A DNA stretch of 39,833 nucleotides from NCBI GenBank assembly GCA_030656195.1, contig JAUSOJ010000036.1, positions 1-39,833 on the forward strand, in the 5' to 3' direction. Shown piece after piece: positions 3,753 to 37,166 of the stretch. Below the pieces are notes generated by a model. That model saw only the letters and a program-made list of their open reading frames with translations, was not told where the DNA came from and made no database searches. The stretch's first letter is position 1. Each line of letters opens with the position of its first letter. Made by a program: the position numbers and the translations under genes. This DNA is from Lutibacter sp. Its GTDB lineage: Bacteria > Bacteroidota > Bacteroidia > Flavobacteriales > Flavobacteriaceae.

Positions 3753-4874
3753 ATGAAAACAATTTTATACATCGTTCAAAAGGAATTCAGGCAAATTTTT
3801 AGAAATAAAGGAATGCTTCCCATTATTTTTGTGCTGCCGATTTTACAATTGGTTATTTTGTCGAATGCGGCAACATTTGAAATCAAAAACATCAAATTCT
3901 CTTATGTTGATCATGATAAAACCTCGTTTTCAAGAGCATTGATCGAAAAATTTGATGCATCCACGTATTTTCATGTCATTGCAAATTTTCCTTCAAAAAA
4001 AGAAGCGAATGCCGCGATGGCAAAAGGGGAAGTTGATGTTATTTTGGAAATTCCCCGCTATTTTGAACGCGACTTGTTAAAACAAAAAAATACAGACATT
4101 TCTGTTGCAATCAATGCCATTGACGGTGCTGCGGCCGGCGTTGAAAATGTGTACATCAACCAAATTGTGCAGGATTTCAACAAAAAAGCAAAAGTAGCAT
4201 TGTTGACGCCAACAGATATGGTAAATACACCAATAGATATCGTGGCTATTCCTTCCTTTTGGTACAACAAAACCTTAAACTATAAAACATTTATGGTTCC
4301 CGGGATATTGGTTTTGCTGGTTACGATGATTACACTTTTTTTGTCGGGAATGAATATTGTTCGTGAAAAGGAAATTGGCACCTTAGAACAAATGAACGTA
4401 ACACCCATTAAAAAATACCAGTTTATCATTGGCAAATTATTCCCGTTTTGGATCTTGGGATTTGTTTTGCTGACTGTCGGTTTAACCATTGCAAAAGTTG
4501 TTTTTAATGTTCCCATCATTGGAAACTTAGGATTGATTTATTTTTACACCGCATTTTATCTTTTGGTGGTTTTGGGAATGGGATTGTTTATTTCCAATTT
4601 TACCGACACCCAACAGCAAGCGATGTTTATTTCCTGGTTTTTTGTGGTTATTTTTATTTTGATGAGCGGACTTTTTACGCCCATTGAAAGTATGCCCATG
4701 TGGGCACAATATGTAACAGAGTTCAATCCGGTAAAATATTTCGTGCAAGTGACACGGATGGTGATGCTAAAAGGTGCCGGTTTTAACGATATTTTGCCCC
4801 AACTTACAAAAACCATTATTTATGCCATTATTATGAACGGATTGGCGGTTTGGAGTTACCAAAAAACGACTTAA
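3753..4874 (+). CDS. ABC exporter permease (YbhR type)
   Basis: 373 residues, paralogous to the previous permease: N-terminal helix (about 20-40), periplasmic domain (about 45-175), five further transmembrane segments, and the coupling-helix motif VREKEIGTLEQMNVTPIKKY. Together with the two ATPases and the first permease it completes a four-protein ABC-2 exporter. The 161-bp gap before it holds two heptad repeats and a hairpin repeat. No terminator is evident after it. The substrate is unknown. Confidence 0.88.
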   Translation: MKTILYIVQKEFRQIFRNKGMLPIIFVLPILQLVILSNAATFEIKNIKFSYVDHDKTSFSRALIEKFDASTYFHVIANFPSKKEANAAMAKGEVDVILEIPRYFERDLLKQKNTDISVAINAIDGAAAGVENVYINQIVQDFNKKAKVALLTPTDMVNTPIDIVAIPSFWYNKTLNYKTFMVPGILVLLVTMITLFLSGMNIVREKEIGTLEQMNVTPIKKYQFIIGKLFPFWILGFVLLTVGLTIAKVVFNVPIIGNLGLIYFYTAFYLLVVLGMGLFISNFTDTQQQAMFISWFFVVIFILMSGLFTPIESMPMWAQYVTEFNPVKYFVQVTRMVMLKGAGFNDILPQLTKTIIYAIIMNGLAVWSYQKTT

Positions 4875-5029
4875 ATTTAAATATTAAAGAAAAATATGCA
4901 CTCTCTAAAAAAGAATCTTTGATTTGTTTGATATACGGGTAAAAGAAGGCAATTATATTTTTTTACAGTAATTTGAGTAAATTTTATAAGCAATATCTTC
5001 AATTTTTCTACCGCTTAATGATTTAAAAA

Positions 5030-5491
5030 ATGAAAAAAATGATCAAAAAAACAGCCCTGTTATTAATAGCATTTGTAATGCTGTCCTTTAGTGAATCTAA
5101 CACTGATGAAGGCTATTCATTAACCATAAAAGCAGAAGGATTCAGGAATGCTAAAGGAGAAATCTTATTTGCGTTATACAATAAAGACAACTCTATTCCT
5201 GATGAAAAATACAAGAAATATTTTAAAAAGGGTATTTCGAAAATTAATAGAAATGGTACGGCAACTTTTACCTTTACAAATTTACCTGAAGGGAATTACG
5301 CTGTAAATATTTTACACGATGAAAACAAAAACGGGAAAATAGACAGAAAATTCCTTCTGCCAATGCCAAGTGAGGGCATCGGATTTTCAAATTATAAATC
5401 CATCGGAATGTCAAATCGCCCTAACTTTTCTAAAGCGAGTTTTCTTGTAAAATCTAATATGGAAAAAGTTATAAAAGTAATTTACTTTTAA
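5030..5491 (+). CDS. DUF2141 secreted protein
   Basis: 153 residues. A cleavable signal peptide (about 1-22, no lipobox Cys) precedes a beta-sandwich domain of the DUF2141 family. Family features visible are the early strand-turn SLTIKAEGFRNAKGEILFAL, the LPEGNYAVNILHDEN segment and the acidic loop HDENKNGKID (96-105), which looks like a calcium-type Dx(D/N)xNG loop. Members are periplasmic or outer-membrane associated and of unknown function. Its stop overlaps the next gene start (TAATG), so the pair is translationally coupled and the product probably works with the phospholipase-like outer-membrane protein. Confidence 0.85.
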   Translation: MKKMIKKTALLLIAFVMLSFSESNTDEGYSLTIKAEGFRNAKGEILFALYNKDNSIPDEKYKKYFKKGISKINRNGTATFTFTNLPEGNYAVNILHDENKNGKIDRKFLLPMPSEGIGFSNYKSIGMSNRPNFSKASFLVKSNMEKVIKVIYF

Positions 5492-6390
5492 TGAAACTGT
5501 ATAGCCGCCTCTTGCTTTTCATTGGTTTTGCTGCTAATCTAGCGCTGGCGCAAACGAATGAAGAAGCTACATCAATCCTTGATCTGGATAAAATGGCACA
5601 GATTAATCAAGGCGATAGCTATGTAACGTTTCCGTTTGATTTTGGAAATATAGAACCGCTTATGTTTGAAGCAAACGTAAGTCCCAGTTTTAAAATTCGA
5701 GAACGAAAGGATTCCAGATTAATGGGTGTCCTTACAGGCCAAATTATTATCAGGATGTATGATGAAACGTCATATCCGGTAAGAACGCCTAGCTATATAC
5801 CACAAATTACATTTTATTTTTTAACAGGAAATAAACAAGCCTCGAAGAAACTGACTTTGTTTGGTCGATTTGCGCACCATTCAAACGGCCAAGATGGAAA
5901 TTTCTATAATGAAGATGGAGATATCAATTTGAAGTCTGGAAATTTCGCCACTAATTTTGTTGAATTAGGCCTTATCAAATCATCTTATAGCAACCATTTA
6001 AATGCTTTCAAGTTTTTTAAAAGCTCTGTTGAAATCCATCCAAAAAGTTGGATGCTTGATGAAATGAAGGGAAAATATAGCGGATTGCGCTGGCACAATA
6101 CTTTTTTAGCCTATAAACTTCCAATGGATGGTGATTTTAAAAAAAGCCAGAAGGCAAATTTTTCATTAAAGGCAGAAACTATTATGATGTTAGATAATTT
6201 AAATAATCAGGAAATTTTTGATTTGAAACGGTTAAATGCCAGCCTAACATTTTACTACCACCCAAAATTTTTGGAAGATATTGGGTTTTTTGTCCAGTTT
6301 TATCATGGCGCGGACTATTACAATATTTACTTTAATCACCAAATTGATACCATTCGTTTTGGTTTAATGACAGAAATTTTAAGATTTTAA
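5491..6390 (+). CDS. phospholipase A1 (OMPLA/PldA)-like outer-membrane protein
   Basis: 299 residues with a signal peptide (about 1-20, cleavage near LALAQT) and alternating hydrophobic strands typical of a beta-barrel. Residues 129-133 read HHSNG, matching the catalytic His-x-Ser-Asn-Gly element of OMPLA (His129, Ser131); Asn155 in FATNFVEL fits the catalytic Asn, after a longer loop than in E. coli. The C-terminus (QFYHGADYYNIYFNH then RFGLMTEILRF) also aligns by eye with the PldA end, and the final Phe is typical of barrel proteins. OMPLA hydrolyses acyl chains of mislocalised outer-leaflet phospholipids and needs calcium. Activity is inferred, not proven; the long insert in the active-site loop leaves some doubt. 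Confidence 0.65.
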   Translation: MKLYSRLLLFIGFAANLALAQTNEEATSILDLDKMAQINQGDSYVTFPFDFGNIEPLMFEANVSPSFKIRERKDSRLMGVLTGQIIIRMYDETSYPVRTPSYIPQITFYFLTGNKQASKKLTLFGRFAHHSNGQDGNFYNEDGDINLKSGNFATNFVELGLIKSSYSNHLNAFKFFKSSVEIHPKSWMLDEMKGKYSGLRWHNTFLAYKLPMDGDFKKSQKANFSLKAETIMMLDNLNNQEIFDLKRLNASLTFYYHPKFLEDIGFFVQFYHGADYYNIYFNHQIDTIRFGLMTEILRF

Positions 6391-31360: not shown

Positions 31361-31363
31361 AAT

Positions 31364-31390
31364 GAATTCCGCTTGTGTGCGGAATTTTTT
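31364..31390 (+). terminator. terminator/attenuator between the PfkB and purF-type genes
   Basis: AATTCCGC-TTGTGT-GCGGAATT followed by T6; an 8-bp stem, 30 nt before the ATG at 31419. Confidence 0.7.
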
Positions 31391-31418
31391 TATTGAATTC
31401 ACAATTAATACTACTACT

Positions 31419-33320
31419 ATGAGCGACGCTATTAAACATGAATGTGGAATTGCAATGGTTAGAATGCTAAAACCATTACAATATTATAAAGACAAATACG
31501 GAACGGCTTTTTACGGCTTAAACAAAATGTATTTGTTGATGGAAAAACAGCACAATCGCGGTCAGGATGGTGCAGGTTTGGCAAGCATCAAATTTAACGT
31601 GCCGCCGGGAACGCGCTATATCAGCCGTATTCGCTCAAACGAAGACCAACCCATTCAGGACATTTTTGACCAAATTAATGGCCGATTAAACAGTTTAAAT
31701 ATCGAATTTCCCGATAAAATTGATGATGTGGAATGGCAACTGAACAATGCCCCTTACATTGGAAATCTGTATTTGGGACACGTGCGTTACGGTACTTTTG
31801 GAAAAAACAGTATTGAAAGCGTTCACCCGTTTTTACGCCAAAGCAACTGGATGCACAAATGCTTGATTGTTGCGGGAAATTTCAATATGACCAATTCTAA
31901 ACGCTTGTTTAATGATTTGGTTGATATAGGGCAACATCCGAAAGAAATGACCGATACCGTGACTGTCATGGAAAAAATAGGGCATTTTATAGATGATGAA
32001 GTTGCCAAATTGTATGATAAAATCAAAAAGGAATTTGGCGTTACCAAAAAGGAAGCGTCTCCTATGATTGAAGAACGCATCAACATCAAAAAAATATTGA
32101 AAAAATCGGCTAAGAATTGGGACGGCGGTTATGCAATGGCTGGTTTGTTGGGTCACGGCGATGCGTTTGTGTTACGCGATCCTTCGGGAATTCGCCCTGC
32201 CTTTTATTATGCAGATGATGAATTTGTGGTGGTTGCATCAGAACGTCCGGCGATACAAACTGTTTTTAATATTGCCCTAAAAGATGTTAAAGAAATTGAG
32301 CGCGGCCACGCATTAATCATAAAACGCAGCGGAAAAATTTCTATGGCTAAAATCAAGGAACCGATGCCAAACAAAGCCTGTTCTTTTGAGCGCATTTATT
32401 TCTCCAGAGGAAGCGATGCAGATATTTATACCGAGCGAAAAAATTTGGGGAAATTGGTGTTTCCACAAATTGCGGATAAAATAAAAGGCGATTTAAAAAA
32501 CACGGTTTTTTCTTACATTCCTAATACAGCGGAAACTTCTTTTTACGGATTGCGTGAAGCTGCCGTAGATTTTTTAAATGTGCAAAAAACGGCTGCTATT
32601 TTAAAAGGACAACGCAGCTTGTCGGCCGAAAAAGTGACTGAAATATTGGCTGAAATACCGCGTTTTGAAAAATTGGCCATTAAAGACGCAAAATTGCGGA
32701 CATTTATTGCCGATGACACCAGCAGAGACGATTTGGTGGCGCATATTTACGACGTCACTTACGGCATTGTGAAACCAACCGACAATTTGGTGATTATTGA
32801 CGACAGTATTGTGCGCGGAACGACTTTAAAGAAAAGCATTATCCGGATTTTAGACCGATTAAATCCTAAAAAAATTATTGTGGTTTCCTCGGCACCGCAA
32901 ATTCGTTATCCCGATTGTTACGGAATTGATATGGCAAAATTGGGCGATTTTATCGCTTTCAGGGCCGCTTTGGAACTGTTGAAACAAACCAACCAAGAGC
33001 ATATCATTAAAGAGGTTTATGTAAATTGCCTGAGCCAAAAACATTTGGAAGATATAGAATTGAAAAATGAAGTAAAAGCCATTTACGACCAGTTTACCGA
33101 TGAACAAATTTCCGACAAAATTGCCGAAATGCTAAAAACTCCGGAAATTAATGCGGAAGTTGAAATCATTTTCCAATCGGTTGATAATTTACATATTGCC
33201 TGCCCAAATCATCCTGGCGACTGGTATTTTACGGGCGATTATCCAACGCCCGGCGGAAACCGTGTGGTAAATGATGCTTTCATTAATTTTTATGAAGGAA
33301 GCGACAAAAGGGCTTATTGA
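31419..33320 (+). CDS. amidophosphoribosyltransferase, long (PurF-type) form
   Basis: 633 residues from the ATG at 31419 (MSDAIKHECGIAMV); an in-frame start at 31362 would run through the terminator hairpin. An N-terminal glutaminase domain with nucleophile Cys9 after a short propeptide, RGQDGAG and LGHVRYGTFG, is followed by a phosphoribosyltransferase domain with the PRPP loop VIIDDSIVRGTT (459-470). It makes phosphoribosylamine from PRPP and glutamine, the first step of purine synthesis. It is about 130-160 residues longer than classical PurF, as in a second PurF-like family of Bacteroidota. The last 20 codons are repeated at 34734-34796, after fic. Confidence 0.88.
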   Translation: MSDAIKHECGIAMVRMLKPLQYYKDKYGTAFYGLNKMYLLMEKQHNRGQDGAGLASIKFNVPPGTRYISRIRSNEDQPIQDIFDQINGRLNSLNIEFPDKIDDVEWQLNNAPYIGNLYLGHVRYGTFGKNSIESVHPFLRQSNWMHKCLIVAGNFNMTNSKRLFNDLVDIGQHPKEMTDTVTVMEKIGHFIDDEVAKLYDKIKKEFGVTKKEASPMIEERINIKKILKKSAKNWDGGYAMAGLLGHGDAFVLRDPSGIRPAFYYADDEFVVVASERPAIQTVFNIALKDVKEIERGHALIIKRSGKISMAKIKEPMPNKACSFERIYFSRGSDADIYTERKNLGKLVFPQIADKIKGDLKNTVFSYIPNTAETSFYGLREAAVDFLNVQKTAAILKGQRSLSAEKVTEILAEIPRFEKLAIKDAKLRTFIADDTSRDDLVAHIYDVTYGIVKPTDNLVIIDDSIVRGTTLKKSIIRILDRLNPKKIIVVSSAPQIRYPDCYGIDMAKLGDFIAFRAALELLKQTNQEHIIKEVYVNCLSQKHLEDIELKNEVKAIYDQFTDEQISDKIAEMLKTPEINAEVEIIFQSVDNLHIACPNHPGDWYFTGDYPTPGGNRVVNDAFINFYEGSDKRAY

Positions 33321-33388
33321 TATTAATATTAAAAGTTAAATATTAAAAGTTAAAAGTAAGGATAGGTTGTGACCTGTTGTTCTAAAAG
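33256..33388 (+). repeat. direct repeat, left copy (3' end of purF-type gene plus downstream DNA)
   Basis: Includes the last 20 codons and stop (33258-33320) and about 68 bp beyond, to GTTCTAAAA. The right copy begins 1,476 bp downstream; the 63-nt coding part differs at 5 positions. Copy number of a 7-bp unit (ATATTAA/AAGTTAA) after the stop differs between the copies. Confidence 0.85.
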
Positions 33389-33397
33389 CAATTTATT

Positions 33398-33418
33398 AAA
33401 TAAGAAGTCTTCTTATTT
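33398..33418. promoter_or_regulatory. inverted repeat upstream of fic
   Basis: AAATAAGAAG-T-CTTCTTATTT, perfect 10-bp arms. An AAATAAGAA half recurs at 33520-33528, close to the fic -7 element. Confidence 0.55.
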
Positions 33419-33447
33419 TAAAATAATAACAAATAATTGAAATATCG

Positions 33448-33492
33448 AATTCACTATTTAAAAATATTTATAGTATTTTAAATAGTGAATTT
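33448..33492. promoter_or_regulatory. 45-bp imperfect palindrome upstream of fic
   Basis: 19-nt arms with one mismatch (AATTCACTATTT outward ends) around the 7-nt centre TTTATAG. It lies just before the fic promoter; a possible operator for the winged-helix end of the Fic protein, or a hairpin. Confidence 0.6.
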
Positions 33493-33530
33493 TTAATTTA
33501 AAAAAACAACCGTATTTTTAAATAAGAATT

Positions 33531-33538
33531 ATATTTGT
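33531..33538 (+). promoter_or_regulatory. putative -7 element for fic
   Basis: TATATTTG, a consensus match 16 nt before the ATG at 33554. Confidence 0.5.
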
Positions 33539-33553
33539 TTAAAATACAGCATT

Positions 33554-34678
33554 ATGAAAAATTACAAATCGGGAGATTATCACAATCAAGGCTTTTACAA
33601 AAGTTTTCAGCCAACTTTAATAAACAAGCAGTGGTTACTTGATGATATGGAAATTCAACAACTGCTATCAAAGGCCGACAGGCAATTGGGCAGATTGGAT
33701 ATGTATTCCGAGTATATTCCAAACATTGATTTGTTTATCAGTATGCACGTGCTCAAAGAAGCTACACAAAGCAGCAAAATTGAAGGTACACAAACCAATA
33801 TTGAAGAAGCCCTTTTAGATAAAGAAGACATCGTTTTAGACAAAAGAGACGATTGGGAAGAAGTACAAAACTACATCGAGGCAATGAACACGGCCATAAA
33901 ACAGCTAGAAACGCTACCGTTTTCTACCCGATTAATCAAGGAAACACATAGAATTCTCTTGCAAGGAGTGAGAGGAAAGAACAAGCAGCCTGGCGAATTT
34001 AGAACCAGTCAAAACTGGATTGGCGGTGCCACTATAAGTGATGCCACGTTTATTCCCCCGTTACATAATTCGTTAGCCGAGCTCATGGGTGATTTGGAAA
34101 AATTTGCTCATAACGAAGAATTTTATTTTCCCGATTTACTTAAAATTGCCTTAATACATTATCAATTTGAAACCATTCACCCTTTTTTAGATGGAAATGG
34201 CAGGGCTGGAAGATTGCTTATTACACTTTATTTGGTGGATAAAACAATTCTCAAAAAACCAATTTTGTACTTATCCGATTTTTTTGAACGAAATAGGCAG
34301 TTGTACTATGACAATTTAATGAATGTTAGAACCAAAAATGATTTAAAACAATGGTTCAAATTTTTCTTGGTAGGAATTATAGAAACCGCCAAAAAAGGTA
34401 TTGAAACCTTTGATGCTGTTTTAAAACTCAAAAAAGAAATAGAAGAAAAAATTCAAAAAACAAATAATCGAAGCCATCATCTGTTAAACATTATGGAATT
34501 TCTATACCAAAAACCTATTGTAAATGCCATTAAAATAGTAGCTTTAACCAACGTGTCCCAACCTACTGCCTACAAAATTTTACAAGAATTGGTAAGTATG
34601 AATATTCTAAAAGAAATAACGGGAGGCAAAAGAGGCAAAGTGTATGTGTTTGACAATTATATAAAATTATTTAACTAA
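33554..34678 (+). CDS. Fic family protein (class II) with C-terminal winged helix
   Basis: 374 residues. Fic_N-type N-terminus with the inhibitory motif SSKIEG (73-78, S-x3-E-G), which puts it in class II; Fic core motif HPFLDGNGRAGR (209-220) with catalytic His209 intact; C-terminal winged-helix segment (NVSQPTAYKILQELV). Fic enzymes transfer AMP from ATP to target proteins; the inhibitory helix keeps them off. The target is unknown. No separate antitoxin is adjacent, as expected for class II. The gene sits between two copies of the purF-type 3' end and behind two inverted repeats, which suggests insertion and autoregulation. Confidence 0.92.
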   Translation: MKNYKSGDYHNQGFYKSFQPTLINKQWLLDDMEIQQLLSKADRQLGRLDMYSEYIPNIDLFISMHVLKEATQSSKIEGTQTNIEEALLDKEDIVLDKRDDWEEVQNYIEAMNTAIKQLETLPFSTRLIKETHRILLQGVRGKNKQPGEFRTSQNWIGGATISDATFIPPLHNSLAELMGDLEKFAHNEEFYFPDLLKIALIHYQFETIHPFLDGNGRAGRLLITLYLVDKTILKKPILYLSDFFERNRQLYYDNLMNVRTKNDLKQWFKFFLVGIIETAKKGIETFDAVLKLKKEIEEKIQKTNNRSHHLLNIMEFLYQKPIVNAIKIVALTNVSQPTAYKILQELVSMNILKEITGGKRGKVYVFDNYIKLFN

Positions 34679-34731
34679 GATGAATGGACTAGCCTAAAAA
34701 GACAAACATTTAGTAAATTTTTTTATGAACT

Positions 34732-34850
34732 GAAACCTAGTGGTAAATGATGCCTTCATTCATTTATATGAAGGAAGCGACAAAAGGGCTTATTGATATT
34801 AAAAGTTAAAAGTATGGACAGCTCACGACCTATCGTTCTAAAAATTAATC
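34732..34850 (+). repeat. direct repeat, right copy (purF-type 3' end remnant)
   Basis: 34734-34796 reads in frame as the last 20 residues and stop of the purF-type protein (ends YEGSDKRAY), preceded by a TGA; homology continues to about GTTCTAAAA at 34836-34844. It has no start and is a gene fragment. Confidence 0.85.
34734..34796 (+). pseudogene. 20-codon remnant of the purF-type gene
   Basis: NLVVNDAFIHLYEGSDKRAY then TGA, against NRVVNDAFINFYEGSDKRAY in the intact gene. Three residue changes; no upstream coding part. Confidence 0.8.
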
Positions 34851-34894
34851 CCGCACTTGCGGCGCCAACTATTTTCATATATTTAGCATTGGTT

Positions 34895-34927
34895 AAAATT
34901 GAATTGCAAAACAAGCAATTCAATTTT
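34895..34927 (+). terminator. strong hairpin, possible terminator
   Basis: AAAATTGAATTGC pairs perfectly with GCAATTCAATTTT around AAAACAA (13-bp stem), ending in TTTT. It could be the original terminator of the purF-type gene before the fic insertion. Confidence 0.55.
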
Positions 34928-34964
34928 CAATGATTTATAAATCTAACAGCTTCAACAAACTATT

Positions 34965-37166
34965 TTGAAAGATATTTTACTGATAACGCCTCCTTTTACG
35001 CAATTGAATACGCCTTATCCCGCCACGGCATATTTGAAAGGGTTTTTGAACACAAAAGGCATCAGTTCTTTTCAAATGGACTTGGGCATTGAGGTGATTT
35101 TAGAACTTTTTTCCAAGGAAAGTCTGCAAAAACTATTCGATTTTGCTTTTGAAAATAACAGGATTGAATCTGAAAATGCGCAGCGAATTTATGCATTGAA
35201 AGACGACTATTTAAAAACCATTGGCGATGTGATTGGTTTTTTGCAAGGAAAAAAACAGACCATTGCCAGACAAATTTGCGCTTCAAATTTTCTTCCGGAG
35301 GCTTCGCGATTTTCTGAACTTGATGAGTTGGAATGGGCTTTTGGGAATATGGGAATTCAGGATCAGGCAAAGCATTTGGCGACTTTATACCTTGAAGATT
35401 TATCCGATTTTATTGTGGAATGCATCGACGAGAATTTTGGTTTTAGCCGTTATGCCGAAAGATTGGGGCAAAGCGCCAACAATTTTAATGAGCTGAATGA
35501 AAACCTGCAAAAGGAAACCACGGTTATTGATGACATTACCCTGAAAATTTTGGATGAAAAACTAAAAGTCATCCAGCCAAAACTGGTTTGTTTTTCGGTG
35601 CCGTTTCCGGGCAATTTGTACAGCGCTTTTCGCTGTGCGCAATTCATCAAAAAAAATTATCCTGAGATTAAAGTGGCGATGGGCGGCGGATTTCCAAATA
35701 CGGAATTAAGAAGCGTTACGGATGTTCGGGTTTTTGAATTTTTCGATTTTATTACCTTGGACGACGGCGAATTGCCGGTTGAATTGTTGCTGTCGAATGT
35801 GTTGCATGCTTTGGCGAGCAATCCCGATTATAAATTATTCAAAAGAACTTTTTTGAAGGAAAACGAAAAAGTGGTTTACAACAATTTGTCGGTTAAAAAC
35901 GATTACAAACAAGCGTATGTTGGCACACCGGATTATGCCGATTTGTTGCTGAGCGACTATATTTCTGTCATAGAAATTGCCAATCCGATGCACAGTTTAT
36001 GGAGCGACGGTCGTTGGAACAAACTTACGATGGCGCACGGCTGTTACTGGGGAAAATGCACTTTTTGCGATATTTCACTCGATTATATTAAAATTTATGA
36101 ACCCATTGCCGCAAAATTATTGGTGGACCGCATTGAAGAAATTGTAGCGCAAACCGGCGAAAAAGGATTTCATTTTGTGGATGAAGCCGCCCCTCCTGCG
36201 TTGATGCGTGCGCTGGCGATAGAAATTATCAGACGAAAAATTACGGTGACCTGGTGGACAAATATTCGTTTTGAGAAAAGTTTCACCAAAGATCTTTGTG
36301 TTTTGTTGAAAGCATCGGGTTGTATAGCGGTTTCTGGCGGATTGGAAGTGGCTTCCGACCGATTGCTGGAACTGATTAAAAAAGGCGTAACCTTGGAACA
36401 AGTGGCGCAAGTGACTAACAATTTCACCAATGCCGGCATTATGGTTCACGCCTATTTAATGTACGGTTTTCCAACCCAAACGGTTCAGGAAACGGTGGAC
36501 AGTTTGGAAATGGTGCGTCAATTGTTTGAACTGGGCACTATAAAATCGGGATTTTGGCATCAGTTTGCGTTGACAACCCACAGTCCGATTGGTTTAAATC
36601 CGACAGGATACGGCATTTTTCCGGATTACAAGGAAATCACTTTTGCCAACAACGACATACAATTTAAAGACAAAACACAAATTGATCACGATAAATTCAG
36701 TTTTGGGTTGAAGAAATCCATTTTCAATTTTATGCACGGCGTTGGTTTTGATTTGCCGCTGCAAGATTGGTTTGAGTTTAAAATTTCGAAAACCAGTATT
36801 AAAAATGATTTTATGCAAAAATGCCTAGAAGCTGAACCTTATGTTATGGTAAAACCTTCGGCAAAAATTATTTGGCTGGGCGGAAAACCTTTGGTATCGG
36901 AACTTACAAAATCAAAAAAAGGAAAATCAAAACAACTGCTTCAACTCACTTTTCACGATAAAAGTGACAGCGTTCAGGTGCAAATGGAAAAGGAAAACGG
37001 TGAATGGTTTTTGAAGATTTTGGAACGCCTATCTGTTTACAATAACGAACAACTCACTTTTTCAGCAATAAAAACCGACTATGAAATCCATTTTGGTGAT
37101 TTCGAATTGTTTTGGTATTCCAAACCCGTTAACAGTTTACGGGCGCACGGGTTGTTGGTGTTGTAG
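34965..37166 (+). CDS. B12-binding domain radical SAM protein
   Basis: 733 residues, start TTG at 34965, directly before the conserved KDILLITPPFTQLNTPYPAT; no upstream ATG is in frame. An N-terminal cobalamin-binding-like Rossmann domain (about 1-280, GGGFPNTE near 240) is followed by a radical SAM barrel whose cluster motif is HGCYWGKCTFCD (Cys360, Cys365, Cys368; C-x4-C-x2-C rather than C-x3-C-x2-C), and a C-terminal region of unknown role. Members often methylate unactivated carbons or modify peptides or lipids, using SAM and sometimes cobalamin. No peptide precursor gene is seen next to it. The reaction is unknown. Confidence 0.85.
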   Translation: MKDILLITPPFTQLNTPYPATAYLKGFLNTKGISSFQMDLGIEVILELFSKESLQKLFDFAFENNRIESENAQRIYALKDDYLKTIGDVIGFLQGKKQTIARQICASNFLPEASRFSELDELEWAFGNMGIQDQAKHLATLYLEDLSDFIVECIDENFGFSRYAERLGQSANNFNELNENLQKETTVIDDITLKILDEKLKVIQPKLVCFSVPFPGNLYSAFRCAQFIKKNYPEIKVAMGGGFPNTELRSVTDVRVFEFFDFITLDDGELPVELLLSNVLHALASNPDYKLFKRTFLKENEKVVYNNLSVKNDYKQAYVGTPDYADLLLSDYISVIEIANPMHSLWSDGRWNKLTMAHGCYWGKCTFCDISLDYIKIYEPIAAKLLVDRIEEIVAQTGEKGFHFVDEAAPPALMRALAIEIIRRKITVTWWTNIRFEKSFTKDLCVLLKASGCIAVSGGLEVASDRLLELIKKGVTLEQVAQVTNNFTNAGIMVHAYLMYGFPTQTVQETVDSLEMVRQLFELGTIKSGFWHQFALTTHSPIGLNPTGYGIFPDYKEITFANNDIQFKDKTQIDHDKFSFGLKKSIFNFMHGVGFDLPLQDWFEFKISKTSIKNDFMQKCLEAEPYVMVKPSAKIIWLGGKPLVSELTKSKKGKSKQLLQLTFHDKSDSVQVQMEKENGEWFLKILERLSVYNNEQLTFSAIKTDYEIHFGDFELFWYSKPVNSLRAHGLLVL

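Follow-up and report, generated by a model that had tools for sequence, protein, structure and literature searches.

The stretch of DNA analysed here, called the window, comprises 39,833 nucleotides of a Lutibacter sp. genome (Flavobacteriaceae; assembly GCA_030656195.1, contig JAUSOJ010000036.1), and its subject is fic, a gene for a Fic-domain enzyme that lies between two copies of the 3' end of the gene in front of it, a purF-like class II amidotransferase/phosphoribosyltransferase gene (Table 1). A first-pass annotation, made from the letters of the window alone, had named the latter gene purF-type; the likeness stands, and purF-like is the fitting name, its score of 117.9 bits against the TIGR01134 purF model being below the cut-off of 350.

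Table 1. Features of the window at the fic insertion
Feature	Position	Strand	Details
purF-like class II amidotransferase/phosphoribosyltransferase gene, insertion target	31362..33320	+	652-aa open reading frame; TIGR01134 purF 117.9 bits
Left copy of the repeated gene end, from the last codons through the stop to about 67 bp past it; joined to the intact gene	33256..33387	+	
fic upstream region with overlapping AT-rich palindromes	33388..33553	+	palindromes 33437-33463/33476-33502 and 33393-33407/33409-33423
fic, predicted 374-aa SoFic-type adenylyltransferase	33554..34678	+	PF13784, PF02661; PADLOC SoFic E 2.6e-122; PDB SoFic 3eqx/3zcn
Decayed start of hsdR, the gene for the type I restriction subunit	34679..34731	+	41/54 ungapped identities to locus L078
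Right copy of the purF-like 3' end; first bases common to G009, travelling with the unit	34732..34850	+	
B12/radical-SAM-type gene, directly 3' of the purF-like gene at the empty sites of close relatives	34965..37166	+	

A duplicated gene end around fic

The two copies of the gene end, or tails, align in two blocks, one without gaps at a spacing of 1,476 bp (33256-33334 and 34732-34810, 90% match) and one shorter (33340-33387 and 34796-34843, 83% match), and the two together form a single repeat that carries an indel of about 20 bp. The alignment reaches 113 bits, against a maximum of 31 among 150 pairs of the same spacing elsewhere in the window, which confirms the duplication reported in the first-pass annotation; its reading of the coding parts is likewise borne out by eye, as they differ at 5 positions and each ends in YEGSDKRAY and a stop. 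Since the genome holds a single full-length purF-like gene and an in-frame TGA stands at the start of the right copy, that copy is a 3' tail only, and not the end of a separate, once full-length gene.

Between the tails, fic is the sole open reading frame (ORF) of at least 100 aa, with the AT-rich palindromes upstream of it; neither a transposase nor an integrase gene is present there, and none of 22 inverted-repeat pairs joins the two ends of the unit, so that terminal inverted repeats were not found. The upstream region may hold the promoter and possibly an operator. Over 33385-33553 the window is 95% identical to the genome G009 of the same genus, and the first 70 bp of this segment are 87% identical to the empty site of another relative, G002.

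Empty sites in relatives

The full purF-like tail is present in 37 of 38 genomes of the genus (in G014 the gene stops at a contig edge). A second tail occurs in only two of the 37, the window genome (G000) and G009, where it coincides with fic, and the other 35 are single-tailed, five of them in stretches that reach just 0.3-2 kb beyond the gene (G004, G031, G017, G029, G015). The second tail of G000 was found by protein search and that of G009, which is frameshifted, by DNA. The fic gene itself occurs in seven of the 38 genomes, and at purF in these two only. Among the eleven closest relatives examined, seven (G001, G021, G029, G005, G026, G002, G015) have an empty site, with one tail followed after about 170-370 bp by the same radical-SAM gene that stands behind the right copy in the window; the remaining four are G009 with fic, G034 with other cargo, and G023 and G003 with one tail, for which the radical-SAM gene was not found within the stretch examined. 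The presence of fic at the purF-like gene is an insertion, with both a gene 3' end duplicated around the insert and an empty site in relatives, as in genomic islands. The first-pass annotation had taken fic for a mobile passenger, carried by a unit without recombinase that keeps the gene end whole, and these empty sites support that view; the relatives that it called for, with a single repeat and no fic at this place, are the 35 single-tailed genomes, and a history in which all relatives carry fic and both copies fails, as most have neither fic nor a second tail.

Trees of purF and of the radical-SAM gene both group G000 with the pair G009 and G001, and the site of G001 is empty; this topology therefore calls for one gain and one loss, or for two gains. 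The right copy of G009 runs into the flank seen at the empty site of its sister G001, and its left copy runs into a fic-type flank that is also found in G000 and, over 70 bp, at the empty site of G002. The right junction is common to G000 and G009, as are the left flank of G009 and the first bases of its right copy. Given these mosaic tails and the shared junction, fic therefore moves with tail sequence on both sides, with crossovers inside the tail. DNA identity between the two genomes is 97.7% in fic, 95.0% in purF and 92.2% in the radical-SAM gene.

Two further candidates for a repeated tail were set aside. In G076 the copies are split by a run of N, and the repeat is an artefact, most likely of assembly overlap. 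In G091 a second, divergent purF tail lies at a contig end (start of contig C17), possibly on a stray contig.

The Fic protein and its origin

The predicted protein has Fic_N and Fic domains, and its family match spans 359 of 374 residues. It includes the stretch HPFLDGNGRAGR, seen in the alignment, which corresponds to the Fic motif of SoFic proteins, HPFx(D/E)GNGRxxR; an N-terminal SSKIEG fits the class II inhibitory motif. Scores fall short in two places, with 20.1 bits against a cut-off of 27 for the SoFic-type C-terminal domain (PF21248) and 179.6 against 550 for the SoFic equivalog model (NF046030). Judged by its sequence, the protein belongs to the SoFic family (PADLOC, PDB 3EQX), a single-protein anti-phage family, without being a member of the curated equivalog; a role of the window fic in phage defence is predicted from this membership. 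Class 2 Fic (Sofic) is described as a single-protein anti-phage system, and one E. coli strain has a 47-aa antitoxin gene downstream of Sofic (PMC12249575). The window differs in that no ORF of at least 20 aa lies on the + strand between fic and the right tail copy; a 46-aa ORF with a TTG start (34793-34933) overlaps that copy.

The roughly 53 bp that follow the fic stop match the fic locus L078 at 41 of 54 positions, the fic stop codon counted, and 5000 shuffles reached at most 28. Two frames of L078, put together, give a remnant peptide that aligns with the beginning of the frame behind fic in L101 of Gelidibacter pelagius (70% over 27 aa, E 1e-7). That frame is HsdR, and fic stands there within a type I restriction-modification (R-M) operon in the order N6-methylase, specificity subunit, fic, HsdR; in addition, a short ORF 5' of fic in L078, which has no Pfam match of its own, resembles the end of the L101 specificity subunit. 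The roughly 50 bp behind the window fic are thus a decayed hsdR start, and together with the L101 operon they show that this fic lineage came out of a type I R-M operon.

The same layout at other gene ends

The survey of other fic loci drew on the best 80 of 419 relatives, 7 loci of the genus and 28 further ones from the phylum, 115 in all, of which 112 remained after three duplicates were dropped and 104 had enough flank (eight dropped); they are partly non-independent (G000 with G009, L147 with L150). With search zones of 800/400 bp, direct repeats of at least 33 bits flank 21 of the 104 fic loci and 8 of 201 control ORFs from the same stretches (p 1.4e-5); at 60 bits or more the counts are 16 and 3. 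Zones of 400/200 bp give 15 of 79 and 4 of 155. For comparison, 200 cross-locus pairs (zones of 1200/800 bp) reach 28.3 bits. Inspection by eye assigned 11 of the 21 repeats, spread over nine sites, to the 3' ends of genes; this assignment covers the fic repeats only. The layout is thus not unique to the window, and eight further target genes join the purF-like gene (G000, G009): lepA (L147, L150), metF (L140, opposite orientation), tRNA-Phe (L103 and, at a separate site, L160), tRNA-Leu (two sites, L137 and L113), tRNA-Pro (L126) and tRNA-Asn (L152). In Chitinophaga the target is lepA and not typA; in F. davisii it is metF, which adjoins metH and is split over several frames in the record concerned. 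L134 resembles a tRNA on inspection, and as ARAGORN calls no tRNA there, it is excluded from the nine targets.

The flanking repeats are the ends of the target genes and differ by locus, and the dimensions recur. Eight of the nine targets have fic as their sole ORF of at least 100 aa between the repeats (L113 adds a GNAT gene), and, also at eight of nine in each case, the distance from start to start is 1.3-2.0 kb (1.3-2.5 kb over all), the fic stop precedes the right copy by 16-158 bp, and the duplication is about 43-116 bp long. A tRNA gene with its 3' end towards the ORF is present within 800 bp at 9 of 112 fic loci and at 3 of 197 controls (p 0.01). At lepA, the fic genes of the two genomes are 99.9% identical and the lepA genes 93%; of the five other genomes of that genus, four show a single lepA end with no fic in the flank examined, and the fifth gave no match. 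Neither at lepA nor at the Allomuricauda tRNA-Phe site described below is the right flank conserved in empty relatives, so that only the left side of these empty sites is established.

Behind the tRNA at the tRNA-Asn site (L152, 5315-8960) stand two units in tandem whose fic ORFs are identical, each unit closed by the tRNA end and terminator; this is a tandem amplification between repeats.

Units and integrase elements at one tRNA-Phe site

A tRNA-Phe site in Allomuricauda, matched in 57 of 60 genomes, is used by more than one kind of cargo. Twenty genomes were examined, five of them picked because extra copies had already been seen, and six of the 20 have extra tRNA-Phe 3' fragments. Their cargo is fic in two genomes, HicA/HicB-type genes with DUF1398 in one (two units), an NYN-domain and a sigma-factor-like ORF in one, and none in two; a hairpin stands directly before the fragment in five of the six and, in part, in one of the two units of the sixth. 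A wider search of 71 genomes gave seven more stretches, in four of which the displaced fragment is adjoined by a tyrosine-recombinase gene. In ten genomes the extra fragments begin at tRNA position 61-62 irrespective of cargo, and the small units, with fic or other cargo, share this attachment point with integrase elements of 8-10 kb. In G556 (L109 record, L287) fic lies directly beyond the displaced fragment, the tRNA itself being outside the stretch, and in G495 (L284) fic lies beyond it in the opposite orientation, cut by the end of the stretch.

Several features of this site stand by themselves. In G532 (L244, 310-1914) a HicB/HicA unit and then a DUF1398 unit follow tRNA-Phe, each closed by a tRNA-Phe 3' fragment, in the manner of a cassette array. 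G538 (L245) and G543 (L246) have cargo-free units of about 110 bp with a shared hairpin end, which are miniature forms. By eye, GAATCGAAGTT precedes the fragment in two integrase elements (L284 of G495, L287 of G556) and in small units such as that of G538. The integrase element of G546 (L285) encodes a replication protein of the REP_ORF2/G2P type (4718-5572), hinting at a single-stranded DNA phage or a rolling-circle element.

How the unit may move

The explanation we place first, tentatively and somewhat short of an even chance, is that a small recombinase-free unit enters gene 3' ends by recombination with the enzyme supplied in trans. Under it, fic and its upstream region would form a one-gene mobile unit of about 1.45 kb, edged by pieces of the purF-like 3' end, that would enter by recombination between such a piece and the recipient's own gene end. 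The gene to the left of fic would thereby remain whole, and the tail that the recipient had before would come to lie to the right of fic. The founding insertion would be the work of a tyrosine recombinase from another element, and later spread among sister species may have used the duplicated tail as homology. Entry of a small unit into gene 3' ends by recombination is well supported, by the insertion set against empty sites, the tail mosaic of G009 and the layout at other gene 3' ends; hints of a tyrosine recombinase acting in trans exist at tRNA-Phe, and for purF its action is purely inferred. The first-pass annotation had proposed movement in trans or by homologous recombination, and this part stays conditional, with candidate helpers at the Allomuricauda tRNA-Phe site and none at purF in the stretches searched.

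Several results weigh against this explanation. No integrase was found in 81 purF downstream stretches (tblastn with four Allomuricauda integrase queries), and with the same number of queries a similar integrase lay in the flank of one of the 115 fic loci, 52 of which have 5 kb on both sides; tyrosine recombinases are encoded in all ten genomes tested, a result that ordinary Xer proteins would give as well. At its right end the window unit has the hsdR remnant and no att arm that can be recognised. All four integrase elements lack the hairpin of the small units, so that the two do not share that arm, and a search of viral contigs for hairpin plus core gave 0 exact matches. The stretch examined in G556 shows no further fragment beyond fic. 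Zones of 1200/800 bp give less of a contrast in the survey (at 33 bits or more, 19 of 84 fic loci and 15 of 155 controls), and 10 of the 21 repeat-flanked loci are not tied to a gene end (L155, L117, L121, L131, L156, L177, L172, L161, L141, L134), the repeat of L177 covering the start region of its own fic and that of L131 lying upstream of the following ORF. At L160 (G272) each tRNA-Phe copy has its own, different terminator, the left one matching three of seven relatives, and no simple model accounts for this; the right flank of G272 is also present in relatives.

A close rival, which we consider quite possible, is homologous recombination alone, in which one illegitimate event joined an R-M-derived fic fragment to a purF tail and RecA crossovers in purF and the duplicated tail then spread the stretch after DNA uptake or transduction. 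For the window, this account does about as well as the first: G000 and G009 share the right junction, the tails of G009 are mosaic, the junction lies inside the hsdR remnant, no integrase is found at purF, and a single founding event is enough. It does not explain the tRNA ends, since the identified targets are six tRNA and three protein genes, always at the 3' end, and the constant tRNA position 61-62 with different cargo is left unexplained unless the units share one ancestor. Insertion with long target duplication, as for R-M genes, where some process would duplicate target sequence, from tens to hundreds of bp, so that it flanks the incoming gene, seems unlikely to us, and the link is worth keeping because the window fic came from an R-M operon. 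The concept has been described for R-M genes (PMC3031569), and the variable duplication length agrees with it, as does G034, where HTH and HipA-type genes in the same gap stand beside a duplicated 5' end of the radical-SAM gene; the identifiable fic gene-end cases are all 3' (L131 could be a 5' case), and the excess of tRNA 3' ends facing fic also speaks against it. That the unit is the remnant of a larger integrative element, with fic alone left between its two attachment sites, is still less probable. The 8-10-kb integrase elements at tRNA-Phe, directly beside fic in G556 and G495, and the GNAT gene retained in L113 would suit such decay, which, repeated independently, would hardly yield fic-only units of such uniform size and spacing at eight of nine targets, nor a lepA unit conserved at 99.9% across hosts whose lepA differs by 7%.

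Relation to known systems

The ingredients of a recombinase-free unit that uses gene ends are already known, namely gene-end islands, additive tRNA islands and hitchers mobilised in trans. Islands with tyrosine integrases occupy tRNA genes and gene 3' ends, and have an intact gene on one side and a displaced 3' fragment on the other, as here; the fic units differ in having no integrase inside, in their small size and in carrying fic alone at eight of nine targets. Additive flexible genomic islands, or tRNA cassettes, are described as tens of kb or larger (PMC4119200, PMC10872708), one of them with repeats of the last 20 bp of a tRNA gene (PMC10872708); they too add cargo behind a tRNA, and here the cargo is single genes, found at the ends of protein genes as well. 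R-M genes are reported to insert with long target duplications of tens to hundreds of bp (PMC3031569, citing Nobusato et al. 2000), with the likeness of a gene flanked by duplicated target and of R-M origin; in contrast, a single fic makes up the cargo here, and such duplicated targets as were identified lie at the 3' ends of genes, tRNA genes in several cases. CALIN and other hitchers are recombinase-less cargo mobilised in trans (PMC11389934), and share with the fic unit the lack of an own recombinase; here the target gene's own 3' end would take the place of attC as attachment site, and mobilisation in trans is a proposal. Recombinase-free SoFic units at gene 3' ends are not named in the literature titles and abstract openings searched, which is no proof of absence.

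Single-gene defence systems are scattered among genomes, and how genes without a mobility function arrive is mostly unexplained. The present case offers a direct view of junctions, of empty sites and of several separate targets, and because integrase-bearing elements occur beside the bare unit at one site, helper-dependent movement of one gene is directly testable. More speculatively, and rather doubtfully, SoFic and some small defence or toxin-antitoxin genes might be integrase-less, mostly one-gene cassettes with a copy of a host gene's 3' end as attachment site. Tyrosine recombinases of co-resident elements would capture these cassettes and add them one after another behind tRNA and housekeeping genes; this would parallel integrons, with gene ends replacing attI and attC.

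Other genes behind purF

The gap between purF and the radical-SAM gene holds other genes in some relatives. In G009 (L033) an AbiEii/AbiEi pair (Pfam AbiEii, PADLOC AbiEi) lies between the right tail copy and the radical-SAM gene, adjoining the fic unit; this gap therefore collects defence genes. The duplication beside the helix-turn-helix (HTH) and HipA-type genes of G034 (L032) spans 169 bp and 38 codons at 90.5% and, unlike the identified fic cases, involves a 5' end. Behind purF in G023 (L039), a bacteriocin-like small ORF and a peptidase/ABC-transporter-like ORF can be seen by eye, together with repeated segments around transposase-like ORFs.

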